NCBI RefSeq assembly: GCF_900142465.1
Contig: NZ_FRAX01000015.1
Coordinates: 1-64,000 of the forward strand
Direction: 5' to 3'
DNA from: Fibrobacter sp. UWH6
Lineage (GTDB): Bacteria > Fibrobacterota > Fibrobacteria > Fibrobacterales > Fibrobacteraceae
Length of the DNA stretch: 64,000 nucleotides
The notes beneath the pieces were generated by a model. That model saw only the letters and a program-made list of their open reading frames with translations, made no database searches and was not told the DNA's origin. The position numbers and the translations under genes are program-made. Positions 6,161-21,927 of the stretch are shown here, piece by piece (positions within the stretch are counted from its first letter, which is position 1; each line of letters begins with the position of its first letter).

Positions 6161-6517
6161 CTACTTGCTGGCGTTGTATTCGTTCAATGCGGCTACAACC
6201 TTTTCGTGGGCCACCTTGAGGACTTCTACCATGGCGGCGTCGGCGGGAGCCGTCTGGGGACGGAGCTGCTCTGTCAGTTCAGAGGCTGCCTGCTGCAATT
6301 CTGTAAAGGCCAGATTGGCTGCAACACCTTTCAGAGTGTGTGCGGCACGGAAGCAGTCGGGAATAGACCCTGCGCTGATGGCGTTCTGCAAGGAAACAAA
6401 GCTGTCGTCTTTCAGATACATCAAGGCGAACTTTTCGATGAAGGATTCCTTCATCAGTCGGTTCTGGGCTTCGGCGTAGTTGCCGTTGATCTTTGCGTAC
6501 AATTCCTGGAGTGTCAT
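6161..6517 (-). CDS. Hpt domain phosphotransfer protein
   Basis: A 118-residue single-domain histidine phosphotransferase. The active-site helix reads AAHTLKGVAANL, with the conserved H-x-L-K-G around the phospho-accepting histidine. It should relay phosphate between a hybrid sensor kinase and a receiver. The start was placed at the ATG that overlaps the stop of the upstream REC-GGDEF-EAL gene (TAATG), not the in-frame codon 24 bases earlier. That overlap implies translational coupling and makes the neighbour's REC domain its likely partner. No histidine kinase is in the window. Confidence 0.9.
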   Translation of the reverse strand: MTLQELYAKINGNYAEAQNRLMKESFIEKFALMYLKDDSFVSLQNAISAGSIPDCFRAAHTLKGVAANLAFTELQQAASELTEQLRPQTAPADAAMVEVLKVAHEKVVAALNEYNASK

Positions 6518-8172
6518 TATATCTTTCCTTCGGCCTTGCACTTGGCAAGGAACTGCTTAAAGTCTTCTTCGGGGAGGGGCTTGCTGAAATAGTAACCCTG
6601 GATGTAGTCGCAGTTATCCTCGCGGAGTATGTTGACCTGGGTTTCTGTTTCGGCGCCTTCGGCCACAACTTTCATTCCAAGAAGATGGCACATGTCGATA
6701 ATCATCTTGACGATGTGCTTGACATCGGGATTGTTTTCCAGCTGGCGCACGAAGCTCATGTCGATTTTCAGGATATCGAACTTGTAGTGCATCAACATGC
6801 CCAGGGAGGAATAACCGCTGCCGAAGTCATCCATCAGGAGCCATGCCCCCTGTTCACGCAGGGCGCTCAAAACGTCTCCGCGATTTTCCTTGAGGGCGGC
6901 GAAAGAGGATTCGGTAATTTCGTAACGTACGGAACCAGGTGCTGTGACGCGCTGTGCCACATGGTCAAGAATATTCTGGATCATGTCCTGGTCATAGAAG
7001 TCCATCCAGGAAAGGTTCACGGAAACGGGCACGGTCGGAAGTCCCTGATCATGCCAGCGTCGCATAACCTGGTTTACCTTGCGGTCTACGAACAGGTCTA
7101 GCTTAGAGATGAAGCCGTCTTTTTCGAGGACTGGGATGAACAGGTCGGGGCGTACGAAACCGCGAACGGGGTGAATCCAGCGAATAAGGGCTTCTGCAGA
7201 AGCGATCTTTCCGGTAGCGGCTTCCATGATCGGCTGGTAATAGACCTTGAATTCTTCGTTGGCCATACTGGTGTCGAATTCTGAAGTCACGGAAGCGGCG
7301 TTGATATAGTTGTTGGCCATCTTGTCGTCGAAGATGGCGTAAGGCTTAAGATATTCGTCTTCGATGTAGCTAAGGGACAGCTTGGCGCGGTCCACAAAGT
7401 TGATGACGTCTCCATCGCTGTCGATATAGCTGATGCCGGTACGGAAACGGAACTGCATGCTGCGTCCGGTCCAATCCAGAACCTGGTTGTTCTCGTGCAT
7501 CATCGCATCGATGTTGATCTTGTCGGCCTCGACTAGGCACACGAAGTGGTCTGCCTCGAATCGAGAAACGAAAATGGGTTCCAGGCCGGCGCCCGACATT
7601 CCTCTGTAGGTCTGCTTTAAGACTGCGTCTCCGCCTTCTGTTCCGAGGACAGAGTTAATGGCCTTGAAATTCTTAACGTCAAAGAACATGACGGCGTACT
7701 TGGTACGGTCTTCGCACTTTTGCAAGAAATTGTTGGCCATCTGGAGGAAGCCAGATCGGTTATAGGCTCCGGTAAGTAAATCTCTATAGGAGTATTCGCG
7801 GCTGGCGATTACGTTCATTACACGGCGCAGAACGATCTGCGGGTTGTAAGGCTTGGCAAAAAAGTCTGCGGCGCCTAGATCGTATGCTCTAGACAGGGCT
7901 TCGTCGGTGGAGTCGCCGGAAATGATGATGACGGGGAGCTTGTGTTGCCACCCCCTCTTGTTGAATTCCTGTAAGGTTTCGTATCCGTTTAGGACGGGCA
8001 TGACCAAATCCAGAAGTACCAAGCGAAATACGTGGTCGCCCTTTTCGATTATATCAATGGCTTCTTGGCCGTTGCTTGCCTCTACGATGTCGTACTCGTC
8101 TTCAAGAATCAGCCGCAACATCTCGCGGTTGATTTCGGAGTCATCGACAATCAAAATTTCATTTTTTACCAT
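6517..8172 (-). CDS. response regulator with REC, degenerate GGDEF and EAL domains
   Basis: This 551-residue protein should be a phosphorylation-controlled c-di-GMP phosphodiesterase. REC (residues 1-120) has the acidic pair D10/D11, phospho-acceptor D55 in LLDLVMP and K107. The GGDEF-like domain is degenerate: the signature reads FEADHF, so cyclase activity is unlikely; it may bind GTP or serve as a scaffold. The EAL domain keeps the catalytic set: AEALIRW, VSVNLS, YEITES, DDFGSGYSS, LKIDMSFV, AEGAE and YIQGYYFSKP. The start is at MVKNEILIVDD; a longer frame to 8436 would run into the divergent sigma factor gene. It overlaps the Hpt gene by one base. Confidence 0.93.
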   Translation of the reverse strand: MVKNEILIVDDSEINREMLRLILEDEYDIVEASNGQEAIDIIEKGDHVFRLVLLDLVMPVLNGYETLQEFNKRGWQHKLPVIIISGDSTDEALSRAYDLGAADFFAKPYNPQIVLRRVMNVIASREYSYRDLLTGAYNRSGFLQMANNFLQKCEDRTKYAVMFFDVKNFKAINSVLGTEGGDAVLKQTYRGMSGAGLEPIFVSRFEADHFVCLVEADKINIDAMMHENNQVLDWTGRSMQFRFRTGISYIDSDGDVINFVDRAKLSLSYIEDEYLKPYAIFDDKMANNYINAASVTSEFDTSMANEEFKVYYQPIMEAATGKIASAEALIRWIHPVRGFVRPDLFIPVLEKDGFISKLDLFVDRKVNQVMRRWHDQGLPTVPVSVNLSWMDFYDQDMIQNILDHVAQRVTAPGSVRYEITESSFAALKENRGDVLSALREQGAWLLMDDFGSGYSSLGMLMHYKFDILKIDMSFVRQLENNPDVKHIVKMIIDMCHLLGMKVVAEGAETETQVNILREDNCDYIQGYYFSKPLPEEDFKQFLAKCKAEGKI

Positions 8173-8372
8173 TTCGTACTCATGTAAAAAATTTAGATAC
8201 GGGCTGGTCAGGGGGGCTTGGCTCCCTTCGCTCTCAATAAATCTAACCAAAAAAAACAAGTTTTGTGAGAAAAAAATAACAAAATGAGGATTATCACATT
8301 GTTTTCGTGTATAGAGGGGCAAAACTTCTAAATTTGGGTGACATTTTTGATCTCCAGTAGTGTTACACGGGT
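8173..8372. promoter_or_regulatory. divergent promoter region
   Basis: These 200 non-coding bases separate the minus-strand REC-GGDEF-EAL gene from the plus-strand ECF sigma operon and must hold promoters for both. ECF operons are often self-controlled, so the segment around 8335-8372 is a likely site, but I could not define a promoter convincingly. Confidence 0.4.
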
Positions 8373-8876
8373 ATGAATAGGCAAGAAATCGCAAGCAAGA
8401 TGGCTTTTTCCAGGCTTTATGAAAGCTATGGGCCAATGGTGTTTCGCCGATGCGTCGCCTTGTTGAAAGATGATGCGGAGGCTAGTGACATGATGCAGAA
8501 CGTATTTTTGCGGATTTACGAACGTCGTGACTCGCTGGATTTGTCCTCTCCATCTAGTCTGCTGTGGAATACGGCAACCAGGTTATGCCTGAATCGGATC
8601 CGTGATAAGGCCCGCCGTGGCGTAAATACCTGCAGTGAAGACTTGCTTCTGCAGTTGGCGTCTTTAGACGATGAGGTGGATGCCTACGAAGCCGGCAGTG
8701 TCCTGAAAAAGATTTTTTCGAAGGAGCCCGAGTCTACCCGTACCATGGCCGTACTTCACTTTGTGGATGGAATGACTCTGGAAGAGACGGCCGAAGCTGT
8801 TGGACTTTCTGTAAGCGGAGTTCGTAAACGTTTACGCACACTGCAATCCAAGGTTAAGAATTTGGAGGTCAAATAA
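8373..8876 (+). CDS. ECF-type RNA polymerase sigma factor
   Basis: A 167-residue sigma-70 family protein with only regions 2 and 4, as in extracytoplasmic-function sigmas. Region 2 spans about 12-75 (YGPMVFRRC, DAEASDMMQNVFLRIY, LLWNTATRLCLNRIRDKARR). Region 4 spans about 110-162 with a helix-turn-helix (MTLEETAEAVGLSVSGVRKRL). Its stop overlaps the next start as TAATG, tying it to the membrane anti-sigma-like protein and the caspase-like protein. Inferred: it directs transcription of this operon and of an unknown regulon in response to an envelope or surface cue. Confidence 0.92.
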   Translation: MNRQEIASKMAFSRLYESYGPMVFRRCVALLKDDAEASDMMQNVFLRIYERRDSLDLSSPSSLLWNTATRLCLNRIRDKARRGVNTCSEDLLLQLASLDDEVDAYEAGSVLKKIFSKEPESTRTMAVLHFVDGMTLEETAEAVGLSVSGVRKRLRTLQSKVKNLEVK

Positions 8877-9661
8877 TGAAAACGAAAATGAATGTATCCG
8901 ATTTGAAATTGGAACAGTATTTGACAGGGGACCTGCCTTCTGATGAAATGCAGGAACTGCGTCGTCGTGAAGCGACTGATGAAATTTTCCGTGCTCGTCT
9001 GCAGGCAATGCGTGACGAAAATGCCAAAATTTTGGCGGACAATCCCTTTAGCAATTTGTCACCCCGACTTGATGAAATCGATAGGGGAATGTCCGGTGAT
9101 TCTCGCATGGTGGCTCCCAGTCTGTTTTTGAAGGTTGCCGCCGTCATGGTTATCGCCCTGGGCATTTTTGCTGCAGTTTTTGTATCGGGTGGCGAAAGGA
9201 ATCTTGGCGTGAAGGGTGTTGACGGTTCAACTTCTGAAGTCGCTATGGTTTCGGTTGATGATGGAACCCGCATCAAGGGGCTGGAAGCTCGGATGGAAGT
9301 CTGGAAGAAAAATGGTGAAACCGCTGTCCAGATGGAAAATCTGGGTGCCGCTAGCGAAGGCGATGAATTGCAACTCCGCTACTCGGTCCCTGAGAAGTGT
9401 TACGGCATTCTCTTTAGCATGGACGGTAACGGCGTCTTGACGGTGCACTTGGGTAATGGATCTGGATCCATCGCTCTGGAACCGGGTAAAATGGTGACTT
9501 TGCCTTTTGCGTATAAACTAGATGACGCTCCTCATTTTGAAAAGTTCTTTTTGATGACGTCCAGGAATACGTTTGCCATTGATGGAAATGATATTGATGC
9601 ATCCTTGAAGCAGGAAGGCATTAAGGTTGTTGAATTTACGGTAAGCAAATTGGAAAAGTAG
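8876..9661 (+). CDS. membrane anti-sigma-like protein with DUF4384-type domain
   Basis: This 261-residue protein has an N-terminal cytoplasmic segment of about 80 residues shaped like an anti-sigma domain (LEQYLTGDLPSDEMQELRRR), one membrane span at about 82-104 (VAAVMVIALGIFAAVFV), and an outer domain whose pattern (GDELQLRYSVPEKCYGILF, LDDAPHFEKFFLM) resembles DUF4384. DUF4384 domains commonly accompany caspase-like proteins. Inferred: it holds the sigma factor at the membrane until released. There is no zinc-binding HxxxCxxC motif, so it is not a classical ZAS anti-sigma. It overlaps the sigma gene by one base and precedes the caspase gene by 12. Confidence 0.75.
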   Translation: MKTKMNVSDLKLEQYLTGDLPSDEMQELRRREATDEIFRARLQAMRDENAKILADNPFSNLSPRLDEIDRGMSGDSRMVAPSLFLKVAAVMVIALGIFAAVFVSGGERNLGVKGVDGSTSEVAMVSVDDGTRIKGLEARMEVWKKNGETAVQMENLGAASEGDELQLRYSVPEKCYGILFSMDGNGVLTVHLGNGSGSIALEPGKMVTLPFAYKLDDAPHFEKFFLMTSRNTFAIDGNDIDASLKQEGIKVVEFTVSKLEK

Positions 9662-9673
9662 CGGGGGTTGAAA

Positions 9674-11971
9674 ATGAAAAAGGTGTTGATTAAGGTTTTT
9701 GATAGTGTGGTTGGTGCGGGACCATGGAAAAGTATGATTGGTCTTTGCCTGCTTTCCTTTGCCATGTTGTTCCTTATGGTGGGTCGCATTCATGCTGCTG
9801 CCGCAGTTGCTCCGGGGTTGCCTTCGACGACCATCGATCGCTATGTGATTGCCATTAGCGCCAACAATGGCGGTAAGGGACGACCTGTTCTTCGCTATGC
9901 GGAATCCGATGCCAAATCTTTCGCGGCGGTGCTTAAGGATATGGGTGGAGTCAGTCAGAAGAATGTCTACCTGATCCAGGAACCTAGTGTGGCTTTTTTG
10001 AATGCCCACTTTGACAATGTTGACAAAATCCTGGCGAAGGGCAAGGGGAAAAGCGGCCGTGAGGAAGTGCTTGTCTATTACAGTGGCCATGCCGACGAAA
10101 AGGGACTGCATCTAGGTGAAGAAACTTACAGCTGGCAGGAATTCCGCAAACGTGTAGATGCCCTGAATGCCGATGTGAAGATTGCTGTCATCGATGCCTG
10201 TGGTTCCGGTGCCATTACCCGAGCCAAGGGAGGTGTGGCTGTTCCTGCCTTCATGGTAGACCAGAGTAGCGACATGAAGGGCTATGCCTTTATTACCAGC
10301 AGTACCCAGGATGAAGCTAGCCAGGAAAGCGATAAGTTGAGGGGTTCCTTTTTTACCCATTCCCTGGTGAGCGGTCTACGCGGTGCGGGAGACTTGAGCG
10401 GCGATGGCAAGGTGACATTGTCCGAGGCTTACCAGTTTGCCTTTAACGAAACTTTGCAGAAGACGGAGACCACCATGGGTGGAGCTCAGCACCCCAGTCG
10501 AGACATGAATCTGACGGGTACGGGTGATGTGGTGATGACGGACCTGCGCAGTACTAGTGCCGGTATGATTTTGGATGAAGGTATAGAAGGCCGAGTTTTT
10601 ATTCGTGACGCCTCGAACGAACTGGTAGCTGAACTTTATAAGAAGTCCGGTAGATCGATGAGCCTTGGTCTTCCTGCAGGAAAGTACACGGTTCGTCTAG
10701 AAAGGAATGCTGACCTGAATGAAACGAATGTTGAACTTACCAATGGAAAACAGCAGAAAGTGACCGTTCGAGACTTTAAGGCTGTATCCGCCGAAAAGAC
10801 GGTGGCTCGTGGCGAAATCAAGTCTTCTGTTGTTGATGAGAATATGGAAGCCCGCTTTGATTCCCTGGATCATAATAGTAGATTTAGAACAACATTTAAT
10901 GCGGCGGATAAAGCCCACGAACCTCGTAAGGGCCTGATGATGGGTGTGTTCCTGTCGAAGTCGGATGATATTATGATTGGCGCTCAGGCAAGCCTGATTG
11001 GAAACCTGGCTAAAAATGATATGCACGGTATGCAGGTTTCCCCGATATTCAATATCGGCAAGAAAAATTTCCAGGGGGTGCAACTTTCCGGTGGCTTTAA
11101 TTATGCGGGACATATGGATGGTCCGCAAATCGGTCCTGTGAATGTCATAACGAATACAAGTCCCAATGCGGTTCAGGTAGGTGCCGTTAACGTAGCAAGG
11201 AGCGCACGAGTTCAGGTTAGCTCAATTAATATCGCCAGGGATACCGTAAGTGCAACCCAGGTGGGTGCCATCAACATTGTAGGAACGACTAACGTTCAGG
11301 TGAGTGCGATAAATGTCGCTAGGGATGCCCATGTTCAGGTTGGCGCCATCAACGTGGCAAAGAAGGTTGACGATACCCAGATTGCTGTTATCAATGTAGC
11401 CGGTAAGGCGACGGGCCGCCAGTGGGGTGTCATCAACGTGGTGGGTCACGCCGAAAAGACTCCTATCGGTCTTATCAATATCGTTGGAAATGGTGTATGG
11501 AGTTTTACCGGATCCATCAACGAGATGAATGCCCCCGCCATGTCCGTTCATTTTGGTACGGCCTACCTGTTTACGGCACTTGAATTCTCCCGAGCCCTTC
11601 AGAAAGGTTTTGATGAATTCGAGGATGTCTATGAGAACGGCATCGGTCTCGGAACCCAGTTCGGCCAGTACGGTACTCATCTTGAACTGGAGTACATGTT
11701 CCTCCATGTTACGGATAAGTACGGCGAAGACCGTGAGGAAGAGGACTATAAGGGAAATTTCCACCATCGTATCCGTCTTGGCGGTACCGCCAGGCTGATT
11801 CAGGGAATCGGACTTTCCGCCGGCGCAACTTTGAATCTGGCCACGGAGGGTTATGGCGAAAGAATCCTCGTGGAACCCAAGGGAAAGTGGCATGACGACT
11901 GGAATTATCACGGTCATAAGGCGAAATTCTGGCCTGGAATGTATGCCGGTATAACATTTGGGCGATTCTAA
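9674..11971 (+). CDS. caspase-family protein with GAINVA-type surface repeats
   Basis: This 765-residue exported protein begins with a membrane span/signal at about 18-40. Residues about 55-290 are a caspase (C14) fold: an N-terminal strand (DRYVIAISANN), catalytic H139 in VYYSGHAD, and catalytic C176 in AVIDACGSG, all intact. A short beta domain follows (about 297-375). Residues about 485-610 hold nine repeats of the type xGAINVA (GPVNVI, GAVNVA, SSINIA, GAINIV and so on), as in the LA_2272 surface-repeat family. The tail looks like a beta-barrel end. ATG 9674 was chosen because GGGGG lies 6 bases ahead; a TTG at 9668 is in frame. It is the third gene of the sigma/anti-sigma operon. Inferred: an envelope protease or sensor under its own sigma factor. 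Confidence 0.85.
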   Translation: MKKVLIKVFDSVVGAGPWKSMIGLCLLSFAMLFLMVGRIHAAAAVAPGLPSTTIDRYVIAISANNGGKGRPVLRYAESDAKSFAAVLKDMGGVSQKNVYLIQEPSVAFLNAHFDNVDKILAKGKGKSGREEVLVYYSGHADEKGLHLGEETYSWQEFRKRVDALNADVKIAVIDACGSGAITRAKGGVAVPAFMVDQSSDMKGYAFITSSTQDEASQESDKLRGSFFTHSLVSGLRGAGDLSGDGKVTLSEAYQFAFNETLQKTETTMGGAQHPSRDMNLTGTGDVVMTDLRSTSAGMILDEGIEGRVFIRDASNELVAELYKKSGRSMSLGLPAGKYTVRLERNADLNETNVELTNGKQQKVTVRDFKAVSAEKTVARGEIKSSVVDENMEARFDSLDHNSRFRTTFNAADKAHEPRKGLMMGVFLSKSDDIMIGAQASLIGNLAKNDMHGMQVSPIFNIGKKNFQGVQLSGGFNYAGHMDGPQIGPVNVITNTSPNAVQVGAVNVARSARVQVSSINIARDTVSATQVGAINIVGTTNVQVSAINVARDAHVQVGAINVAKKVDDTQIAVINVAGKATGRQWGVINVVGHAEKTPIGLINIVGNGVWSFTGSINEMNAPAMSVHFGTAYLFTALEFSRALQKGFDEFEDVYENGIGLGTQFGQYGTHLELEYMFLHVTDKYGEDREEEDYKGNFHHRIRLGGTARLIQGIGLSAGATLNLATEGYGERILVEPKGKWHDDWNYHGHKAKFWPGMYAGITFGRF

Positions 11972-12116: not shown

Positions 12117-13334
12117 ATGGCTAAGCATAGTGATTTTATAGTACGTCAGAACGAGGCCGAAGCTAATAGAATTGTGGCTAGAGTGCTTCGGATGACTCTT
12201 TGCATTTTCTCTCTGGTGTTGATCCTGAACCTTTGCAGGGTATTCATTATCGACCAGAAGGTGATGCTTTCTGCCTTTGGTTTGAGTGCCCTGCTGCTTT
12301 TGGCTCCTACAGTCATTAACCGTTTTGTGGATAATGCCAACCCGAATTTAAAGTATCTGTATGTGATTCTGTCCAGCCTGTTCTTGCTGGTTATCGAAAC
12401 CACCCTTTCGTTCCATGCGGTGGTGGTGTATGCGTTTCCTATCGCCCTGGCCTGCCTTTACTTTTCTAGGAAGCTGACTTTGCATATTTGGTTCCTGACG
12501 GTGGGCGTTTCCATTGTGGGGCAATTTGCCGGTTTCTATATGGGTTGCGTTCCCGACCAGAACTTCCTGGTCTTTAAACGTCTGGTGCTGTTCAGCATTT
12601 TGCCTAGAACCCTCTGCATTTTTAGTATCGGTAGCTTGATCTATTTTATTTCTGCCCGTACCACAAAGCTGGTGGATCGGCAGATTGCAGATACGGCGAG
12701 AATCAAGGAACTGAATACGGACATGGTGATGGGTTTTGCGAACCTGGTTGAAAACCGTGACGAAAATACGGGTGGTCATGTCAAGCGCACTAGCCGTTAT
12801 GTGGAATTGCTGGTGAAGGAACTGCACCGTCGTGGTGTGTACAAGGATATTATTAACCACGACTTTATTCACGACTTGGTGAATGCGGCTCCTATGCACG
12901 ATATTGGAAAAATTGCCATTCCCGATCATATTTTGCAGAAGCCGGGAAAGCTGACCGACGAGGAATATGCCATTATGAAAACCCATGCGGAACAGGGTGG
13001 CCGAATTATTCGTCAGACCTTCTCCCATATTGGTAATGCCGGGTATAGGCAGATCGTTTATGACGTGGCTCAGTTCCATCACGAAAAATGGAATGGTCGC
13101 GGTTACCCGGAAGGCCGAAAGGGACAGGATATTCCCCTGGCTGCTCGCATTATGGCTGTTGCCGACGTATTCGATGCAGTTTCGCAGAAACGCTGTTACC
13201 GCGATGCAATCCCTCTTGATGAATGTTTTTCCATTATTGAAAAGGGCCGCGGAACGGATTTTGAGCCTATCCTTGTTGACGTATTTTTGGGGATGAAGGA
13301 TCCTATCCGTCAGACCATGGATGAAATTGCCTAA
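12117..13334 (+). CDS. membrane HD-GYP c-di-GMP phosphodiesterase
   Basis: A 405-residue protein. Residues about 25-185 contain five or six hydrophobic segments. The HD-GYP domain occupies about 195-390 with ENRDENTGGHVKRT, the metal-binding MHDIGKIAIPDHIL, then FHHEKWNGRGYPEG, which includes the GYP triad, so it should hydrolyse c-di-GMP to pGpG or GMP. No separate sensor domain is seen; the membrane part may be the input. It stands alone, after a strong terminator and before the TonB-dependent receptor gene. Confidence 0.92.
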   Translation: MAKHSDFIVRQNEAEANRIVARVLRMTLCIFSLVLILNLCRVFIIDQKVMLSAFGLSALLLLAPTVINRFVDNANPNLKYLYVILSSLFLLVIETTLSFHAVVVYAFPIALACLYFSRKLTLHIWFLTVGVSIVGQFAGFYMGCVPDQNFLVFKRLVLFSILPRTLCIFSIGSLIYFISARTTKLVDRQIADTARIKELNTDMVMGFANLVENRDENTGGHVKRTSRYVELLVKELHRRGVYKDIINHDFIHDLVNAAPMHDIGKIAIPDHILQKPGKLTDEEYAIMKTHAEQGGRIIRQTFSHIGNAGYRQIVYDVAQFHHEKWNGRGYPEGRKGQDIPLAARIMAVADVFDAVSQKRCYRDAIPLDECFSIIEKGRGTDFEPILVDVFLGMKDPIRQTMDEIA

Positions 13335-13427
13335 TTATTAGGTGACACTTATCGTTCTTTCTGGTGTTTAACGGTTTAGAATAGTAATTGCTAATTTCTA
13401 AATTGGTAGACAAGCGCGAGAGACGAT

Positions 13428-15935
13428 TTGAAAAAACTTCTTTTATACCTTGCAATGTTTTTGTTGCCTGTCTTGGCAGTGGCGCAGGAAGCCGCTGGTG
13501 AGGGGGCGTCTCTTGCTGCACAGAAAGGGATTCTGTTTTACGGCATGGTTCAGGATTCTTCCTTTGCTCCCGGTGAAAAACTGAATGTGGAAATTCTTGA
13601 AACTGGCGAAGCCCTGCAAACGGTCGTGGGTGAAAATTTCCAGGTGATGCTTCCCGAAGATACCCTGTGGAATGTTTGCGTTACCAATTCCGACACCAGT
13701 GGCGCCGAAAAGGAAAAATGCTATGAGTTGGTCTACCATGGCCAGGATAGTGTTTTTAGCTCAGTCATTGGCGATGCCGGGTTGACGGAATCTGTTGCCG
13801 AGGCTAATGAGGGAACTACTGGTACGGCTGATGGTGACGATTCCAAGACTGCTGTGGCAGCAGCAGATTCCGTGGAACCGCGAAACGACTCGCTACAGAA
13901 CGATCCTCAGGAAAAAGATGTAGATGTGGATGCCCTTTTGGCTGCAGGAAGCAACGGCAAGGTGACCGAAATGAAGAAGGTGGTGGTGCAGTTACGTCGT
14001 CGCCCCAAGCGCAAACCTGGTGAGTCCGTTGTTAGCGCCAAGAGTATCAAGCGCATGCCCGGCCTAGGCGAAGCGGATGTGATCCGCAGTATCCAGCAGT
14101 TGCCCGGTGTGGTTGCCAGTTCTGACTTCAGTACGAAAATTTATGTGCGCGGTGGGGCCGCCGACCAGAACCTGTTCCTGTATGATAACGCGGTGGTGTA
14201 TTCTCCAACCCATTTCTTCGGATTGTTCAGTACCTTCCTGGTGGAAACCATTGACGGTGTGCAGTTCTACAAGAGTGGATTCCCTGCCCAGTACGGCAAC
14301 CGTCTGAGTTCCGTTTTGAAAATGGATGGTCGCGCCGGAGGTAGCGATACTACGGAGGAATGGTTCAGCCGTAGCAGCTTTAAGATTAGCACTTTTGCCG
14401 CCCAGCTCCATACCGAAGGCCATGTGGGTGATGCCCGTTGGGTGATCGCTGGCCGTACCACTTACATCGGCTATATGCTGGATTTGTGCCGCGCCCTGGG
14501 TATTCTGGATTTGGCCATCGATTACGAGTTTACCGATTTGCAGGGAACGTTCATGTATGATTTCGATCAGGATACCCGATTGAAGTTCAGCTTCTACACC
14601 GGCAAGGACGTTCTTGAATTTGATCCCCTTTATGTGGACTGGGGTAATGTGGCTGTTCCCATTAATTTCTACCACCGCTTTGGCGATTGGGATTATAATG
14701 CCACTTTGGCGTACAGCCGTTTTTACCAGACAATGAAATTGACGGACTTGATTAATATCGGTCAGGACCTTTATACCTTTGCGGCAAAGCAGTGGCTCAA
14801 TTTCCGCGGAATCGATAATCATGTTCTAACCTTTGGCTATGAACTGGAATATGACTGGGATAAGTTCTATGAATACATTTCCAGTATGAGGGTGGAAGAT
14901 GTCCAGAAGCCTTTGCACCATGTTCTTTATGGGCAGGATGCCTGGCGCCTGAATGAGGACTGGCTGTTTACTTATGGGTTGCGTCTGAATTATCAGGACC
15001 TGTCCAAGGATTTTGGAATTGAACCTCGCCTGTCTCTGGTGTGGAACATCGATGATCGGAAGACTTTGGAATTTTATGCTGGACACTACCTGCAGTATAT
15101 GAACTCCATTATGTTCGGTGACGGCGAAGCTCTTAACGAATTCTACTACCCGTCGGTAACTACCAGCAAGGGTAAGCACTTGAAGCCCGCTCGATCCAAC
15201 CTCTTTGCGGTGGAATACAAACAGGCCCAGATTGCAGATGAACTTGATTTTATTGCAGGCGCCTATTTCAAGACGCAGAACAACTTGAACACCTTCATGA
15301 TGGTTCAGGATTCAACAGATGAAACCGCTTCTGCGGACTTTTTGATGGCGGATAATTTCGGAACGGCCGAAGGTTATTCCATGGGCTACGAACTTTCACT
15401 CCGTCGTGAAAAGGGTGCGATCTTCGGTGGCATTAACTGGAGCCAGAGTCTCAGCGTTCTTAAAAGCAATGACGGTACTAAACCCTATTTCCCCAGTTGG
15501 CACCAGCCCTATGCCTTAAAGCTGGATGCGGGTATTAACTGGAGGGGTGAAGATGGATTAAAGCCTCACAAGGTTAAGGGACGTTACTTTAGGTCTTCTG
15601 TGGTCATGAAGTATTCTGCAGGCATGCCTATCAGTGAATATCTAGGCTATTTCTACCAGCAGAAAATGGAAGATCAGAAGTATACCGATAATATCCAGGT
15701 TATCCCTGGTTCCCGCAATGCAGGCCGCCAGACGCCCTACTTCCGTATTGACGTAAAGGCCATCGATATTGGACGTGAAAACAAGTGGAACTTCAGCTGG
15801 ACCATTATCAATCTGACGGACCACGAAAACATGTTCTATTCCTACTACGATACCGACAAGAACCCGCCGGAGTATAGCTCGATTTCTCAGTTCCCCTTTT
15901 TGCCGATCATGATCAATTATGAGTATTACTTCTAA
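13428..15935 (+). CDS. TonB-dependent outer membrane receptor
   Basis: This 835-residue protein has a signal peptide (LLLYLAMFLLPVLAVAQ), a small N-terminal beta domain like the carboxypeptidase-regulatory type (about 30-105), a low-complexity linker, a plug domain (about 190-300: RSIQQLPGVVASSDFS, IYVRGGAADQNLFLYDN), and a long beta-barrel ending in an aromatic residue (MINYEYYF). It should import a bulky ligand with energy from TonB, and the ExbB/ExbD/TonB genes lie downstream in the same direction. The start is TTG at 13428, with GAGAG a few bases ahead. It overlaps the following lipoprotein gene by 17 bases. The substrate is unknown. Confidence 0.9.
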   Translation: MKKLLLYLAMFLLPVLAVAQEAAGEGASLAAQKGILFYGMVQDSSFAPGEKLNVEILETGEALQTVVGENFQVMLPEDTLWNVCVTNSDTSGAEKEKCYELVYHGQDSVFSSVIGDAGLTESVAEANEGTTGTADGDDSKTAVAAADSVEPRNDSLQNDPQEKDVDVDALLAAGSNGKVTEMKKVVVQLRRRPKRKPGESVVSAKSIKRMPGLGEADVIRSIQQLPGVVASSDFSTKIYVRGGAADQNLFLYDNAVVYSPTHFFGLFSTFLVETIDGVQFYKSGFPAQYGNRLSSVLKMDGRAGGSDTTEEWFSRSSFKISTFAAQLHTEGHVGDARWVIAGRTTYIGYMLDLCRALGILDLAIDYEFTDLQGTFMYDFDQDTRLKFSFYTGKDVLEFDPLYVDWGNVAVPINFYHRFGDWDYNATLAYSRFYQTMKLTDLINIGQDLYTFAAKQWLNFRGIDNHVLTFGYELEYDWDKFYEYISSMRVEDVQKPLHHVLYGQDAWRLNEDWLFTYGLRLNYQDLSKDFGIEPRLSLVWNIDDRKTLEFYAGHYLQYMNSIMFGDGEALNEFYYPSVTTSKGKHLKPARSNLFAVEYKQAQIADELDFIAGAYFKTQNNLNTFMMVQDSTDETASADFLMADNFGTAEGYSMGYELSLRREKGAIFGGINWSQSLSVLKSNDGTKPYFPSWHQPYALKLDAGINWRGEDGLKPHKVKGRYFRSSVVMKYSAGMPISEYLGYFYQQKMEDQKYTDNIQVIPGSRNAGRQTPYFRIDVKAIDIGRENKWNFSWTIINLTDHENMFYSYYDTDKNPPEYSSISQFPFLPIMINYEYYF

Positions 15936-17592
15936 TAGGTGTGAGGCTTCTCGGACAAGAAAAGCCTTAACTCGTGTTTTGCTTCCTACTGTTTACTTCC
16001 TACTATCTACTATTCTCGCGGCCTGTGATTTTCAGGGGCCTTGGACTTACTATCCGGAAGAGACGGAAGTGTACCGCGGTATCTATACTTTCGGCTATAT
16101 CGTAGCCGATGAATCGCCCTATGTCTGCTTTTCCAAGGTGTATGAATTGGACGAAACCTCTGCGGAAAATTTCGCTTTCTATGATAGTGCCAGTGTGACG
16201 GTGTCAGGAAATTTTGGCCGTGCAGAAGGGGATTCTGTAGCCCAGTTGCAATCTCTGGAATCCAAAGGAAAGCCTAATTGCTTTGGTATGGATGAAGTGG
16301 GTTATGCAGGTATTCCTGGCAAATCCTACACTATGAATGCAACCTTCAAGTGGGATAGCGCGGGCCACAAGGTGACTTCCAAGATGAAGGCTGAAACGAA
16401 TATTCCTACCAAGATTCATGCTAAGGGCGTCATTCCGCCTAGTGTCAAGGATGATGCCGCCTTTGTCAAAAATGATTACAGCTACTTGCCTTTTGAATTC
16501 CTGGGATTTCCCAATGATGTGAAGACCTATAAAATTCCCATGGAGTATGACGAAAGTGTCCGTGGTGTTCTTATGACCATGTCCTACGATAAGATGGAAG
16601 GTGGAGAGTCCATGAATACCACCATAAACAATATGCTGGGTTCGTTCTTGGATCCCGACTCCACTGGTTATGGCGGCGTTTCAACAAAGAAGCCTGAAGA
16701 AAGTACGGCTAGCATGGGCTTTATGACCCGTATGATGGTGGCCGGTCGAAATTCGTTGGACACAATGGAGTATCCCGGAATGACTGTTCCTGTCGGCAAG
16801 TCTACCATTTATTTCTATGCTACCGATCAGGCTTATTCGGATTATGTGAATACGGTGCTGGAGGCCATCAGTGATTCCCGTGTGGTGCCCAAGAGCAACG
16901 TGAACGGAGGAACGGGCGTGTTTAGCGGCATGCTGAAGGATTCCTTGCTGATGGAAGTGTCTGCAGAAAATTATGTGACGTACACGCATATGCGTGGCTG
17001 GGATTGCCTGCAGGAAGGTGGCATGGCGGAACATGTTCCGTTTGAAACGAAGTGGTGCCGCTTAATAGAGGAATCGGTTTGTGTTGAGAAAGAGCAGACG
17101 GATGATGGTGTAAAGGTAAATCTCCTCGCAATCAAGAGCCATTGTGTTTCTGTTGCCGAAAAGGTCAGAATTGAATTGTCTGACACTTATGATTTTAAGG
17201 TGGCGTGGAATGACTACATCGATGAAATTGCCAAGAACGATGATGAATGGTGGTGGGGCCGTGGAAACCGTGATAAGATTGTTTCTCAGAAGGGTTCCAT
17301 CAATGATAAGGCTTTGTTCATGTTCTGCGCAAACAGCGATTTTGTAAGCAACCGTGTGGCCAGTTGCGATAGTCTGCTTGAACAGTGCCAGATAAATCTG
17401 GAAAAAAATAAGTGCAAGGAATCCCTTTGGGAATGGTGTTCTGACCGTGACTGGAATATTTCTGAATATCCTCAGTGCGGGACCGCCTTGGTTAGCCGTT
17501 ATTATCTTGAAGAAATCCAGTCTCCGATTTTGAAAAGGGTGGTGGACAATTGGTGCAAGGAACACCCCAAGGATGCACAGTGCAAGCGGTAA
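15919..17592 (+). CDS. lipoprotein partner of the TonB-dependent receptor
   Basis: A 557-residue protein with lipobox ILAAC near residue 35. Its start overlaps the receptor gene. An outer-membrane lipoprotein encoded directly after a TonB receptor resembles the SusD-like or DUF4249 partners of Bacteroidota. The N-terminal mature part (GIYTFGYIVADESPYVCF) loosely recalls DUF4249, but I cannot confirm the family. The C-terminal third is cysteine-rich, with repeated C-x(6-10)-C spacing. The hydrophobic core of the signal peptide is encoded by a repetitive stretch (15983-16015) built from TTCCTACT-like words, which may be an inserted repeat. Confidence 0.75.
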   Translation: MSITSNRCEASRTRKALTRVLLPTVYFLLSTILAACDFQGPWTYYPEETEVYRGIYTFGYIVADESPYVCFSKVYELDETSAENFAFYDSASVTVSGNFGRAEGDSVAQLQSLESKGKPNCFGMDEVGYAGIPGKSYTMNATFKWDSAGHKVTSKMKAETNIPTKIHAKGVIPPSVKDDAAFVKNDYSYLPFEFLGFPNDVKTYKIPMEYDESVRGVLMTMSYDKMEGGESMNTTINNMLGSFLDPDSTGYGGVSTKKPEESTASMGFMTRMMVAGRNSLDTMEYPGMTVPVGKSTIYFYATDQAYSDYVNTVLEAISDSRVVPKSNVNGGTGVFSGMLKDSLLMEVSAENYVTYTHMRGWDCLQEGGMAEHVPFETKWCRLIEESVCVEKEQTDDGVKVNLLAIKSHCVSVAEKVRIELSDTYDFKVAWNDYIDEIAKNDDEWWWGRGNRDKIVSQKGSINDKALFMFCANSDFVSNRVASCDSLLEQCQINLEKNKCKESLWEWCSDRDWNISEYPQCGTALVSRYYLEEIQSPILKRVVDNWCKEHPKDAQCKR

Positions 17593-17628
17593 CAGAATTT
17601 GTAATTTGAAGTGTTTAAGAGAACGAGT

Positions 17629-18486
17629 ATGAATATGAAAATAAAAACACTGGCTTTTTTAATGTTCGTTGCGGTGTTTGCCGGTAACGTCTTCGCCGAC
17701 GTGGATTCCGACATTCGGGATCTGCAACTGCAGAAGGAAACCCTTAACAGCGAAATCGCAAAATTGAATTCGCAGATTTCCGCTACGGATTCCATGCTGA
17801 AGGCAGACGAAAAACGCTATAAGACTTTGCAGGATCGCTATAAGTCGGACTCGGAACGTCGTAAGGCTGAAATCGATTCCTTGAATACCAAGATCAAGGC
17901 TGTTGCCGCTCAGCTGAATGATGAACGCAACAAGCAGGCTCGTGCCAAGAACCGTAGCGACAATGTGGCCGCCAAGCGCAAGGCGCTCATGACCACGTTG
18001 GCTTCCCTCAGCAAGCAGCTGGAATTTCAGGTGGGGCAGACTTTGCCTTGGAATCGTGACGTTCGCCTGGACCGTGTAAAGTCCCTGACCCGCGATATAG
18101 AAAGTGGAAACGCTTCTGCCGAAGAATCTTTCTCCCGCCTCAAGGCGCTCATTGCCGAAGAGACCAAGTTTGGTGATGAAGTGGCCATCATCAATTCTCC
18201 GCTGACCCGTAAAAATGGTGAACTGATCAACGCACAGATTTTGCGTATCGGAAATCAGTGGATGGTCTACGCCGATGAAAATGCAACGGTTTTCGGTTCC
18301 CTGGTTCGCAAGTGTGCCGGCGATGCGGGCAAGGGCTGTGCTTCTGTAGAATACGAATGGAATGAAGACCTGAATTTGGAAGAACGTGCCGCAGTAAAGT
18401 TTGCCATCGATGTGAAACAGGCCAAGAAGCCGCCTCAGATGGTAACGCTGCCCGTAAGCCTCTCTATTGTGAAGGAGGGCAAGTAA
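17629..18486 (+). CDS. DUF3450-like periplasmic coiled-coil protein
   Basis: A 285-residue protein with a signal peptide (LAFLMFVAVFAGNVFA), a long coiled coil (about 20-125: DLQLQKETLNSEIAKLNSQ) and a C-terminal globular part. Length, layout and position match DUF3450 proteins, which open the TonB2-type operons of Vibrio and relatives. The upstream in-frame GTG at 17611 is less likely than ATG 17629, which follows an AGAGAACGAG purine stretch. Its stop overlaps the next start (TAATG), so it should be made together with the TtpC-like protein. Inferred: an accessory part of TonB energy transfer. Confidence 0.8.
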   Translation: MNMKIKTLAFLMFVAVFAGNVFADVDSDIRDLQLQKETLNSEIAKLNSQISATDSMLKADEKRYKTLQDRYKSDSERRKAEIDSLNTKIKAVAAQLNDERNKQARAKNRSDNVAAKRKALMTTLASLSKQLEFQVGQTLPWNRDVRLDRVKSLTRDIESGNASAEESFSRLKALIAEETKFGDEVAIINSPLTRKNGELINAQILRIGNQWMVYADENATVFGSLVRKCAGDAGKGCASVEYEWNEDLNLEERAAVKFAIDVKQAKKPPQMVTLPVSLSIVKEGK

Positions 18487-20021
18487 TGAAGAACTTGATT
18501 CTGATTGCCTTGTTGTGCGTTTCCTCTGCTTTTGCCTGGCCTTGGTCCAGCGACAAGAAGTCTGCCGCCGTCGATAGCGCCTTGATTTTGGATTCCCTGA
18601 AACGTGAGGAATTCAAGAACTTGCAGCGTGAAGTGGATGCCCTTACCCGCATTCGTTTGCAGAAGGCCGATTCCCTTGAAAAACTGGAAGCTGAACATTG
18701 GCGTAAGCGATATAATGAAACTCAGCTGACAGAAGAACATCAAACTGAAACCCGAGAATTGGATGGCCGCTATTCCAAGCTTTCTACGGATTTAGGCCGC
18801 GTCAACGAAGAAGTTCAGGCCAGCAAGGATCTGACTACGGATGCGGAAGAAAAGGCAAAGTCCGATGAAGGGGCTTACGATAATTTTAATACCCAGGTGA
18901 AACTGGCCGTTGAAAAATCCCTGGGCGAAGTGACGGGTGATTATCCGGTGGGAATGAACGATCGTCTGTTGCGCCTGAAGAAAGCCCAGAATGATGCGGA
19001 TGCCAAGAATCCCAATACGCTTGCCGCCATGCGTGCCTACCTGGAAGATGTTCTGGGTCGACATGAACTGACCTACACTCAGTCTTACGGTAACGAAAAA
19101 TCCCAGGTGGGAAGCCGCCCCGATGTTAACGTGAACCGCCTGCGTCTGGGTACGGTGTTTCTGGGCGAAGTGGCTACAGACGGATCTGCCGATGGTCTTG
19201 GCGAAGTTCAGGCCCTGCTCCGTTCCGGTGCTCTGCAGGGTAAGATTTTCGAATGGAATTCAACCTTGCCCATGGAACTTTCTGCAGGTATTCGTGGTGC
19301 TGTAAACGAAGCCGGTTCCGCTCCGGCCGTGGTCAGCGTCCCGCTGGATGTTCTCCAGAATAAGGCTGTAAAGAATTCCATTACCGATACCAAGGAATTG
19401 ACCTGGAAAGAGGAACTGCAGGCTTTCTTCAAGAAGGGTGGCATTGTGATGTACCCCTTGATGCTGGTGGCCGCTTTCGCCTTGCTCCTGTGCCTGGAAC
19501 GTTTTATCATGCTCACAGTCCGTGGTCGCGTCGGTCGCCGTTTTGTGAAGAAGGTGCATTCCCTGGTTGATGAAAAGCGTTATGATGATGCCGCCAATTA
19601 TTGCCTGAAGCATATGAATAGCCTTTCCATGGTTATGTTTGCGGTGGTGAATCGCGCCAGGGATTCCCGTGAAACGGCGGAGCGTGCCTTGCAGGAAGCC
19701 TTGCTTCGTGAACAGCCGAAACTGGAACGCAGAATGGGATTGCTTGCCGCCATGGGTTCCATCGCCCCGCTGTTGGGCTTGCTGGGTACTGTGACCGGTA
19801 TTATCACCTTGTTCAACGTGATTACGGAAGTGGGAACTAATGATGCCCGCGTTTTGGCTGGAGGTATTTCTGAAGCCCTTGTTACGACAGAAACCGGTTT
19901 GATTATTGCCATTCCCGTGATGATTCTGCATGGCCTTCTCAGTGAAAAAATCGAGAAGGTGACCAGCGAACTTTATGTGCAGAGTACGACCTTGTTGAAT
20001 AAGATTTTCCCCAAGGCATAG
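18486..20021 (+). CDS. TtpC-like MotA/TolQ/ExbB proton channel protein
   Basis: This 511-residue protein fuses a signal peptide and a 300-residue periplasmic coiled-coil region to a C-terminal ExbB/TolQ domain (about 315-505) with three membrane spans. The channel core is well kept: LLAAMGSIAPLLGLLGTVTGII and GISEALVTTETGLIIAIPV. This architecture is TtpC, the fourth component of the Vibrio TonB2 system; ordinary ExbB lacks the extension. The ordinary ExbB gene starts 3 bases after this stop. Inferred: it links the proton channel to a periplasmic partner. Confidence 0.88.
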   Translation: MKNLILIALLCVSSAFAWPWSSDKKSAAVDSALILDSLKREEFKNLQREVDALTRIRLQKADSLEKLEAEHWRKRYNETQLTEEHQTETRELDGRYSKLSTDLGRVNEEVQASKDLTTDAEEKAKSDEGAYDNFNTQVKLAVEKSLGEVTGDYPVGMNDRLLRLKKAQNDADAKNPNTLAAMRAYLEDVLGRHELTYTQSYGNEKSQVGSRPDVNVNRLRLGTVFLGEVATDGSADGLGEVQALLRSGALQGKIFEWNSTLPMELSAGIRGAVNEAGSAPAVVSVPLDVLQNKAVKNSITDTKELTWKEELQAFFKKGGIVMYPLMLVAAFALLLCLERFIMLTVRGRVGRRFVKKVHSLVDEKRYDDAANYCLKHMNSLSMVMFAVVNRARDSRETAERALQEALLREQPKLERRMGLLAAMGSIAPLLGLLGTVTGIITLFNVITEVGTNDARVLAGGISEALVTTETGLIIAIPVMILHGLLSEKIEKVTSELYVQSTTLLNKIFPKA

Positions 20022-20023
20022 AA

Positions 20024-20677
20024 TTGAATAACAGTTGGTACATATTCATAGAAGCTTTGCAGAGCACTTATGGCGCCGGCGGCGTCGTGATGCTCCCTAT
20101 TCTGCTGTGCGGTGCCATCGGATTCTATTTTCTGTATTCTACCTGGATTCGCATTGGCCGAGATATCTTCCGTAAGGATGTCCACAAGGTTGTGGATCGC
20201 CTTCGCAAGGACTTGCATGAAAGTGTAAGCGGCCGCGGTTTAACCGCCCGTAGGCATTTGAAGAAACGTGGCGGAATTGTGGCCCGTGAACTTCATTTGG
20301 CCTTGAAGGTGGCTATCGATACTCCGGCAGATTATCAGGACTACATGCAAGTGCGCATGATCAAGACCGTGCGCTATATGCAGCAGGGAACTCACATTGT
20401 TTCGGTGATGGCGGCTGCGGCTCCGTTGTTGGGTTTGCTTGGAACCGTTACCGGCATGGTGTCTACCTTTGAAGTTATTACCCTTTACGGAAACCAGAAT
20501 CCGGTCCTTATGGCAGACGGTATTTCTGAAGCTCTAATTTCTACACAGAGCGGTTTGCTCATTGCGTTTCCGCTGACCTTGTTAAAACAGCGCCTGGACG
20601 AGCGTATTGAATACCTGACTCAACAGTTAGAACTTGGCGCTACGATTATTGAAAACTGGACCTCTGGTCGGGAATAA
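20024..20677 (+). CDS. exbB: ExbB/TolQ-type proton channel subunit
   Basis: A 217-residue ExbB with the usual three spans: one near 15-40 and two near 125-195. The conserved core (MAAAAPLLGLLGTVTGMVSTF, then ISEALISTQSGLLIAFP) is intact. It should form the pentameric channel around ExbD and power TonB. The start is TTG at 20024, three bases behind the previous stop, and its own stop overlaps the next start as TAATG, so it sits in a tightly coupled series. Confidence 0.92.
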   Translation: MNNSWYIFIEALQSTYGAGGVVMLPILLCGAIGFYFLYSTWIRIGRDIFRKDVHKVVDRLRKDLHESVSGRGLTARRHLKKRGGIVARELHLALKVAIDTPADYQDYMQVRMIKTVRYMQQGTHIVSVMAAAAPLLGLLGTVTGMVSTFEVITLYGNQNPVLMADGISEALISTQSGLLIAFPLTLLKQRLDERIEYLTQQLELGATIIENWTSGRE

Positions 20678-21327
20678 TGAGGCTGATTATGAAATTCAAA
20701 TTTTTTGTTTTGCTCGCCCTGGGCCTCGTTTCAATGAGCTGCTCTTCTAAGGAATCCGCTGAAGAGTATAAGGCGGGAAAAAACGAAGTGACGGCTGAAC
20801 CCGCGGTTGAAATTTCCATGGAAATCGTAAATGGGGAATCCTTCGTAGATGCCCGCGATAACCAGGTGTACCGCTATGTGAAAATTGGCGACGCTGTCTG
20901 GATGAAGGATAATCTGAGGTTCGCTTCCGAAAAAAGTTTCTGCAATCAGGAATATGGCGGCTGCGACAAGGTGGGCCGTTATTACACCATCGAGGAATTG
21001 TCGACCTTGTGCCCTGAAGGCTGGAGGATTCCCAAGGCTAAGGATTTTGCGGCCATGCAGAAGGCCTGCAAGAAAAATCCGGGATTCTGTCTATGGCACG
21101 AATTTGAAAAGCAGGGCTCTGACGAAATTGGGTTCTCTGCCTTGGCGCTGGGACGTTACGACTTGCACGTCTCCAAATTTTCTGAGGTTGGAACGCGGGC
21201 TTATTTCTGGAGCGAAACGAACGGAAAGGCGAAAGATGTATTTACCCTTAAAAAAGGGGAGTATGCCAGCAGCATCAACCGTGCCGAAAAATCAGATGCC
21301 TTTGCGGTTCGCTGTGTGAAGATGTAG
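20677..21327 (+). CDS. FISUMP-type lipoprotein inside the TonB operon
   Basis: This 216-residue lipoprotein has hydrophobic segment FFVLLALGLVSMSC, with C as lipid site. The body shows the F. succinogenes major paralogous domain (FISUMP, TIGR02145): YRYVKIGDAVWMKDNLRF, GRYYTIEELSTLCPEGWRIP, FWSETNG and AFAVRCVK. The domain's function is unknown. It starts either at the TAATG overlap (20677) or, equally well, at ATG 20689, which has GAGG six bases ahead. Placed between exbB and exbD, it is an unexpected extra part of a TonB system and may be an outer-membrane or surface partner of it. Confidence 0.85.
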   Translation: MRLIMKFKFFVLLALGLVSMSCSSKESAEEYKAGKNEVTAEPAVEISMEIVNGESFVDARDNQVYRYVKIGDAVWMKDNLRFASEKSFCNQEYGGCDKVGRYYTIEELSTLCPEGWRIPKAKDFAAMQKACKKNPGFCLWHEFEKQGSDEIGFSALALGRYDLHVSKFSEVGTRAYFWSETNGKAKDVFTLKKGEYASSINRAEKSDAFAVRCVKM

Positions 21328-21380
21328 GATTTTGGGTTCGCAAAAAAAACAAAGCATACCTTTAGAGTAAGAGTTAAAAA

Positions 21381-21785
21381 ATGGATTTTAATTTACCTCG
21401 CCGAAAGCAAAAGGATATGGGCATCGATATGGGCCCTTTGATGGACATTGTGTTCATCTTGCTGATTTTCTTTGTGGTGACTTCTAGCTTTACTCGCGAA
21501 ACTGGCGTGGATGTGACAAAGCCCGAAGCCCAGAGTGCCTCGCAGCTGGAAAAGGAAAACATCCTGGTGGCCATTACCCGCGAAGGTACAATCCACATTA
21601 ACGAACGTCAGGTGGATTTGGCCAGCCTGCAGGATATTCTAAAGCAGACTCTTGCAAAGACGCCTGATCGTGAAGCCGTGATTATTGCGGATAAAGGTGC
21701 GGAAACTGGGGTGCTGGTTCAAGTAATCGACGCCTGTAATTTAAGTGGAGTGAAAAAAGTGTCAATCGCTGCACAAGCGGACTAA
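21381..21785 (+). CDS. exbD: ExbD/TolR-type biopolymer transport protein
   Basis: A 134-residue protein with a short cytoplasmic N-terminus, one membrane span with the proton-carrying aspartate (MGPLMDIVFILLIFFVV), and a small periplasmic domain (about 50-134) ending in VKKVSIAAQAD. It should work with the ExbB just upstream. A 53-base gap separates it from the FISUMP gene and a 142-base repeat island from tonB. Confidence 0.92.
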   Translation: MDFNLPRRKQKDMGIDMGPLMDIVFILLIFFVVTSSFTRETGVDVTKPEAQSASQLEKENILVAITREGTIHINERQVDLASLQDILKQTLAKTPDREAVIIADKGAETGVLVQVIDACNLSGVKKVSIAAQAD

Positions 21786-21927
21786 ACAATGAATTATGAG
21801 ATATGAATTACGAGATACGAAAGAAGTGAGCTGTGTGGACAGTCGTTCTGAACTTGTTTCAGAATCCCATGAATGCACGAGACCCTAAATATCTCATATC
21901 TCGTAACTCATATTTGCCTTTCGCCTT
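21786..21927. repeat. repeat island A inside the TonB operon
   Basis: This non-coding gap between exbD and tonB is built of repeat modules. One arm at 21796-21819 carries words ATGAGATATG and ATTACGAGATACG. The inverted arm at 21891-21913 carries ATCTCATATCTCGTAACTCA. Between them, at 21842-21868, is a core beginning GTCGTTCTGAACTTG and ending TTTCAGAATCCC. The core recurs inverted at 43122-43148 and the arms recur at 43028-43046 and 43091-43108. No protein is encoded. Confidence 0.8.

Follow-up and report, generated by a model that had tools for sequence, protein, structure and literature searches.

A three-gene operon in the window (the whole stretch of 64,000 nucleotides of Fibrobacter sp. 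UWH6 DNA analyzed here) encodes an ECF sigma factor, a membrane anti-sigma and an exported caspase-fold protein, and very probably belongs to a regulon of which the caspase is a member. We estimate a probability of roughly 0.4 that the three proteins form a complete envelope-to-gene signalling chain in which the caspase cuts the anti-sigma. The features of the operon are as follows:

8338–8365, + strand: GTGACATTTTTGATCTCCAGTAGTGTTA, the ECF promoter predicted for this operon; the start codon follows after 7 bases, and no other PWM site in the window scores as high (29.2 bits)
8373–8876, + strand: ECF sigma factor, 167 aa (Sigma70_r2 E = 5e-12, TIGR02937 7e-21), conserved in the trio loci
8876–9661, + strand: membrane anti-sigma, 261 aa, with helices (9–54), a TM segment (85–103), a stalk and an outer DUF4384-like domain
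9674–11971, + strand: exported caspase-fold protein, 765 aa (PF00656 6e-11; metacaspase profile match 6e-6)
9824–10558, + strand: caspase domain, residues 51–295, with H139 at 10088–10090, C176 at 10199–10201 and the S1-type acids D79 and D174
10559–10786, + strand: small beta domain, residues 296–371, pLDDT 52–81 over most of its length, strands at 297–363
11126–11479, + strand: nine QVGAINVA-type repeats, residues 485–602, of the LA_2272/VC2662 surface-repeat type
11504–11968, + strand: beta-rich C-terminal tail ending in ...AGITFGRF, a putative outer-membrane barrel part with a C-terminal Phe and predicted strands

The stop codon of the sigma gene overlaps the start codon of the anti-sigma gene (TAATG), and 12 bases (9662–9673) separate the anti-sigma and caspase genes. 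The initial annotation had read these genes as an ECF sigma, a one-span anti-sigma and an exported caspase-fold protein, with which our analysis agrees, and the three genes co-occur throughout the Fibrobacterota (Fisher p = 5e-18) in a conserved order. Caspase and anti-sigma are both present in 119 genomes and both absent from 29, with 18 and 2 genomes carrying a single one. Both are missing in six Fibrobacter genomes; the trio is usually single-copy per Fibrobacter genome. Four genomes (G046, G048, G049, and G051), one of which is 92% complete, contain the caspase and no match to the anti-sigma. A scan of genome contigs yielded one relative (L002), the plasmid search gave no match with the anti-sigma as query and distant caspases only with the caspase domain, and no relative was found in the viral contigs searched. 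Metacaspase-sigma operons, including that of Fibrobacter, were reported in 2012, and the part of the report that deals with them gives no function (PMC3501461); the earlier statement that no function has been described for the arrangement still stands.

Within the short sigma protein both Sigma70_r2 and Sigma70_r4_2 score above cut-off, corresponding to regions 2 and 4. The anti-sigma has a single TM segment, preceded by N-terminal helices taken from a low-confidence structure model (mean pLDDT 39), which was built from a two-sequence alignment, as was the model of the caspase protein (mean pLDDT 35). For the window anti-sigma itself, zf-HC2 gives no match and the anti-sigma model of NCBIfam scores below cut-off. 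The zinc anti-sigma motif HxxxCxxC occurs in 13 of its 89 relatives, which are distant members, and is lost in the family of the window protein; zf-HC2 matches 5/22 relatives. These features of the distant members strengthen the identification as an anti-sigma, and inhibition of the sigma factor is predicted. The DUF4384 match of the outer domain (Pfam E = 0.0017) is below the curated cut-off. In cyanobacteria, DUF4384 is found alongside caspase homologues (PMC7475262), which suggests a domain able to partner a caspase. The outer domain begins with an invariant R-x-K134-G135 motif, with K134 in 89/89, G135 in 88/89 and R132 in 84/89 relatives. The domain also contains D183, D216, and E222, which are equally conserved, so the conservation of K134-G135 may be structural.

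The caspase-fold protein matches Peptidase_C14 and the profiles of solved metacaspases, including metacaspase-4. Its catalytic dyad, which had been called intact, is indeed present (H139 in YYSGHAD, C176 in DACGSG) and invariant in 81/81 homologues. D79 and D174 are likewise invariant in all 81 and align with metacaspase positions; we take them to be S1-pocket acids of the metacaspase type. The metacaspase alignment and these two residues suggest that the enzyme may prefer a basic residue (Lys/Arg) at P1; metacaspases, whose S1 pocket is acidic, cleave after Arg or Lys (PMC6657590). The nine repeats noted previously start at residues 485, 501, 514, 529, 542, 555, 569, 583, and 597, with a spacing of 13–16. 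The LA_2272 and VC2662 profiles match the window protein below their curated cut-offs; at E ≤ 1e-3, VC2662 is found in 13/24 relatives (best 8e-21) and LA_2272 in 8/24 (best 6e-22). The number of repeats varies between relatives and distant families have none; among the relatives compared, repeats and tail are far more variable than the caspase domain. The tail had been described as barrel-like, which agrees with its predicted beta-rich character and with the Phe that ends 53 of 55 Fibrobacteraceae-type caspase proteins. Structure prediction of the full protein was too poor to prove a barrel, the small beta domain being its only fairly confident part. The protein is probably anchored in the outer membrane by a putative barrel.

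Phylogenetic footprinting identified a conserved motif, GTRACAYTTT-N11-RGTGTTW, upstream of the sigma gene. The 16-base spacer is kept in 57/60 sites and the distance to the start codon in 51/60; the exact motif is present in all 44 Fibrobacter genomes searched (reversed control: 0). As the start codon lies at a fixed 7 bases from the promoter, the sigma mRNA is probably leaderless, and by this computed footprint the operon is predicted to be autoregulated through its own conserved promoter. We infer that the sigma of the trio recognizes the GTRACA/GTGTT motif. A reading of the near-palindrome GTAACAC...GTGTTAC as a repressor site was set aside: in distant families the 16-base spacing and the GTGT element persist, and TGAG[CT]G replaces GTAACA in 10/13, which favors a promoter. 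In genera g4 and g2 the caspase genes are unlinked and have the promoter exactly 7 bases before the start codon in 10/10 cases; one linked caspase gene (L062) has an internal promoter copy at the same distance from its start. The motif was found in none of eight trio-less genomes of other genera, of which the seven searched for a relative of the TonB-plug gene all retain one. A motif site without a detectable trio remains in two genomes (G088 and G086).

A second site in the window precedes a TonB gene set:

13342–13369, + strand: second promoter site, GTGACACTTATCGTTCTTTCTGGTGTTT, 1 mismatch; ranks second among the PWM sites of the window at 26.2 bits, the one after it reaching 7.5
13428–15935, + strand: TonB-dependent-receptor-like outer-membrane protein, regulon member (Plug E = 1e-7; motif upstream in 16 loci)
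15919–17592, + strand: DUF4249-like lipoprotein, regulon member (DUF4249 8e-4, sub-threshold; 1e-5 in a relative; own exact motif in relatives)
17611–18486, + strand: DUF3450 (TtpB-like) protein (3e-19; own exact motif in relatives, 13 loci; weak site here at 17589)
18486–20021, + strand: long MotA/TolQ/ExbB protein, TtpC-like by position (MotA_ExbB 4e-32)
20024–20677, + strand: ExbB-like proton channel (MotA_ExbB 2e-24)
21381–21785, + strand: ExbD-like protein, by sequence and position
21928–22575, + strand: TonB-like protein (TonB_C 3e-7)
22568–23620, + strand: TPR protein, last of the set, positioned like TtpD2 in the Vibrio tonB2 operon (PMC6957404)

The site at 13342 stands before the TonB-plug gene, followed by the whole TonB2-type set, and the gene directly behind it has the exact motif upstream in relatives. 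Recurrent targets of the motif are the TonB-dependent-receptor-like protein, the DUF4249-like lipoprotein, the DUF3450 protein and FMN reductases. Sites with two mismatches are about as frequent in the genome itself (13) as in the reversed control (12), and only those before genes with the motif in relatives were therefore used; an FMN reductase gene has such a site just upstream. A LiaF-like gene (L116) behind a one-mismatch site and the site C12:71021 were not counted as targets. The initial annotation had proposed a self-contained device. This is not borne out: the promoter of the sigma also precedes other genes, mainly those of the TonB uptake system and flavin reductases, which argues for an autoregulated regulon. 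With the operon on record since 2012, the regulon appears to be the new part; the literature searched gave no earlier Fibrobacter regulon assigned to an ECF sigma.

In the model that we propose, the anti-sigma would retain the sigma factor at the inner membrane, and the exported caspase would be attached to the outer membrane through the beta-rich C-terminal region, with the active site toward the periplasm. The outer-membrane part would sense the envelope or nutrient state, and the caspase, Lys/Arg-preferring like metacaspases, would cut the anti-sigma close to where the outer domain begins, with R132-I-K134|G135 as the candidate site. Sigma released by this cleavage would transcribe its own operon, caspase included, and the TonB uptake regulon (the plug-domain protein, the DUF4249-like lipoprotein, the TtpB/ExbB/ExbD/TonB set and the FMN reductases). 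That the caspase is anchored in the outer membrane and cuts the anti-sigma is inferred, as are the nature of the signal and the direction in which it runs; the conserved trio, the invariant catalytic and S1-type residues, the motif with the genes behind it, and its retention by the unlinked caspase come from sequence comparison. The model is supported by the joint presence or absence of caspase and anti-sigma, by the near-invariance of K134, G135, and R132 together with the invariant S1-type acids, and by the precedent of a caspase-fold CHAT protease whose cut in Csx30 frees an ECF-type sigma from inhibition (PMC10028731). It is weakened by the four caspase-bearing genomes with no anti-sigma match, by the two genomes that keep the motif site without the trio, and by the weak structural evidence for barrel and orientation. 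Only tentatively do we extend the proposal to a dedicated, periplasmic, outer-membrane-anchored caspase that cuts a DUF4384-bearing anti-sigma and switches on a TonB regulon phylum-wide from a leaderless, autoregulated message.

An unlinked caspase under control of the sigma would fit an output gene equally well, which further weakens the cleavage model. The caspase could then be a protease that is induced to process or remove other envelope proteins at the outer membrane, with another site-1 protease or a conformational signal freeing the sigma, an explanation that is possible and that we regard with some doubt. In other genera the caspase is indeed an unlinked regulon gene with its own promoter copy, like the TonB and FMN-reductase targets, and the variability of its repeats and tail, far above that of the caspase domain, is expected of a surface-facing protein. 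However, among all targets only the caspase persistently sits directly behind the anti-sigma across the phylum, and the outer domain of that anti-sigma resembles a companion of caspases elsewhere.

It is unlikely that the protein acts as a Fec-like transducer, contacting the periplasmic domain of the anti-sigma while a general protease cuts, and the caspase processes itself or cuts another substrate. The layout resembles FecA-FecR-FecI (a barrel with a periplasmic N-terminal part, an anti-sigma and an ECF sigma), with TonB genes as targets, but no Pfam match to a TonB-receptor plug or signalling domain was found in the window caspase or 23 relatives, and mere contact would not need a dyad invariant in 81/81 homologues. 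Many bacterial caspase homologues are discussed in the context of cell death or anti-phage defense (PMC8195603); that this caspase is such an executioner is very improbable, given a PADLOC search with no defense-model match for any of the three proteins, the phylum-wide conservation, usually as a single copy in each Fibrobacter genome, the uptake and redox genes of the regulon, and the export of the protein.

The comparisons thus point to a bacterial caspase that functions in signalling, not in cell death. Bacterial caspase homologues are numerous, their role is mostly not known, and they are commonly taken to be cell-death enzymes; here, conserved gene order, co-occurrence and a shared promoter tie one to an ECF switch and TonB import. 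If the cleavage model is true, the role of an exported bacterial caspase becomes directly testable, with the anti-sigma as a concrete substrate, K134-G135 as a candidate site and the GTRACA/GTGTT promoters as a readout. The model also proposes an ECF sigma regulon for Fibrobacter, an important fiber-degrading gut genus.

The FecI-FecR-FecA system consists of an ECF sigma, a membrane anti-sigma and an outer-membrane protein with a periplasmic N-terminal part, and has TonB-linked targets, whereas the outer-membrane partner in Fibrobacter would be a caspase domain with surface repeats and not a TonB-receptor transducer. In DegS-RseA-RpoE, which PMC10028731 also mentions, a periplasmic protease acts on a membrane anti-sigma; this likeness holds in the proposed model only, and the Fibrobacter protease has a caspase fold, a putative outer-membrane location and a place in the same operon. 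The gene set at 17611–23620 has a DUF3450 gene first and a TtpD2-type gene last, as in the TonB2 system of Vibrio vulnificus (DUF3450: TtpB2), but the latter is induced by iron depletion and has a Fur site, whereas Fibrobacter relatives have an ECF-type promoter before the DUF3450 gene (PMC6957404). The metacaspase-sigma-70 operons of Myxococcus, Anaeromyxobacter, Haliangium, Sorangium, Ralstonia, and Fibrobacter likewise unite a caspase homologue and a sigma-70 factor (PMC3501461); the part of that 2012 report concerned with them does not discuss anti-sigma partner, promoter, regulon, or function, which are added here, the function as a proposal. For ECF54-type sigmas with CHAT/peptidase neighbors, proteolytic control by a caspase-superfamily protease was also proposed from gene context (PMC8999054), but these are described without an anti-sigma, whereas the Fibrobacter trio has a membrane-bound one. 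In the Cas7-11/Csx29-Csx30-CASP-sigma system, similarly, an ECF-type sigma is under an inhibitor protein, and cleavage by a protease of the caspase fold (CHAT) lifts the inhibition (PMC10028731); the system is RNA-activated and CRISPR-borne, whereas the Fibrobacter caspase is exported and accompanied by a transmembrane anti-sigma and a TonB regulon.

The initial annotation described three coupled genes, and their coordinates, overlap and gap were all re-found, with Pfam and NCBIfam supporting the family assignments:
8373-8876, ECF sigma factor
8876-9661, anti-sigma factor, overlapping the sigma gene (TAATG)
9674-11971, caspase-fold protein, 12 bases after the anti-sigma gene
Divergent from this operon, on the minus strand, lies a gene for a response regulator-GGDEF-EAL protein (6517-8313). 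Apart from the window caspase, no Peptidase_C14 protein was found in the same genome.

Among 168 Fibrobacterota genomes, relatives of the caspase occur in 137 and of the anti-sigma in 121. The expected co-occurrence of the set in other Fibrobacterota was borne out, with both proteins in 119 genomes and neither in 29 (Fisher p = 5e-18, uncorrected for shared ancestry); as genome completeness is uneven, single absences count for little. At almost every locus examined the three genes are neighbours, in families as far out as f7-f11 as well as in close relatives. Metacaspase-sigma operons, including those of Fibrobacter, were noted in 2012 with no function assigned (PMC3501461). Searches of a set of open-licence papers gave no account of the promoter, of the regulon or of a membrane anti-sigma targeted by a caspase.

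Residues H139, C176, D79 and D174 are unchanged in all 81 aligned caspase proteins; the two aspartates line up with positions in metacaspases, and we take them to be the S1 pocket acids. Mean identity in the close group falls from 81% in the caspase domain to 48% in the repeat region and 52% in the tail, which ends in Phe in 53 of 55 proteins. The surface repeats vary in number and are absent from distant families, whose caspase proteins measure about 500-620 residues. Structure models of the caspase protein and of the anti-sigma were unreliable.

The anti-sigma has a single transmembrane segment at residue 85, and its outer domain begins with a near-invariant R-x-K-G (K134 in 89/89, G135 in 88/89, R132 in 84/89). 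The class I anti-sigma zinc motif, HxxxCxxC, is present in 13 of 89 proteins, all distant members, and zf-HC2 matches 5 of 22; the ligands are lost in Fibrobacteraceae, as in the window protein (8876-9661). The proposed DUF4384-like outer domain finds support in the wider family, in which 12 of 22 phylum-wide members match (best E = 3e-8), but the window protein itself falls short of the curated cut-off (E = 0.0017). DUF4384 is found alongside caspases in cyanobacteria (PMC7475262).

A predicted promoter, GTRACA-N16-GTGTT, precedes the sigma gene in 60 distinct loci, with a 16-base spacer in 57. In 51 of the 60 the start codon stands at one fixed distance from the motif, placing it at the expected transcription start, and by this spacing the sigma message is likely leaderless. 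Each of 44 Fibrobacter genomes contains between 1 and 6 matches to the longer pattern GTRACAYTTTN11RGTGTTW, against none to the reversed control pattern. The only strong window sites are at 8338 (29.2 bits) and 13342 (26.2 bits); the next best scores 7.5, and the highest of 20 shuffles 16.2. Distant families keep the geometry in 10 of 13 loci, with GTAACA replaced by TGAG[CT]G; the loci L102-L110 and L112, at the same 16-base spacing, indicate altered -35 recognition between families.

Among the fetched loci, a non-random sample, the genes downstream of motif sites encode sigma (44), FMN reductases of three types (17), TonB-plug protein (16), DUF3450 (13), caspase (8) and DUF4249-like lipoprotein (4), and six sites are unclassified. 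An FMN reductase of the window's own genome (contig C20, 37361) has a two-mismatch site immediately upstream. In five Fibrobacter loci (L037, L042, L044, L090, L149) the gene directly upstream of sigma encodes a flavodoxin-fold FMN reductase and carries a promoter copy of its own. Eight genomes from other genera that lack the trio also lack the motif; seven of these eight were searched for the TonB-plug gene, and all seven keep a relative of it. Genome G088 has an exact site before a TonB-plug gene (C67:106982), with anti-sigma, caspase and sigma not found there; G086 has the same site sequence (C8:18179), with no anti-sigma or caspase of the trio kind found. These sites may be read by another sigma, or the trio may be missing from the assembly.

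Topology would allow the exported caspase domain, N-terminal to the beta-rich tail, to meet the anti-sigma outer domain in the periplasm. The S1 pocket of metacaspases is acidic, and these enzymes cleave after Arg or Lys (PMC6657590). With such a protease encoded beside an anti-sigma bearing R-x-K-G on its outer-domain edge, site-1 cleavage there would be the most economical reading. The caspase could instead be a regulated output of the sigma factor. In genus g4 and in G043 (genus g2) it lies apart from any sigma/anti-sigma pair, which in several of these genomes is located elsewhere, and all ten unlinked genes carry a motif whose end lies 7 bases ahead of a start codon (three differ by one base, GTATCA); at locus L062, where the linkage persists, the caspase already has an internal motif copy. 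Because unlinked caspases thus resemble ordinary regulon targets, we give the whole chain, caspase cleavage of the anti-sigma included, a probability of about 0.42 on sequence grounds, and regard the output reading as a serious, if less probable, alternative. Cleavage of the anti-sigma would have a precedent in Csx29/Csx30, where a caspase-fold protease relieves sigma inhibition (PMC10028731).

Downstream of the caspase, the window encodes in order:
12117-13334, HD-domain (HD-GYP-like) protein, between caspase and TonB-plug genes
from 13428, TonB-plug protein, then DUF4249-like lipoprotein
17611-23620, TonB2-type six-gene set: DUF3450, two MotA/ExbB proteins (long ExbB, ExbB), ExbD-like protein, TonB, TPR protein
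20677-21327, Fib_succ_major lipoprotein, splitting the six-gene set
This split was not seen in the relatives L130 and L136. In several relatives (e.g., G150, L044) the TonB-plug gene directly follows the caspase. In its plan the six-gene set resembles the V. vulnificus tonB2 operon, which opens with a DUF3450 gene, closes with a TtpD2-type gene and is required in that species for siderophore-iron uptake (PMC6957404).
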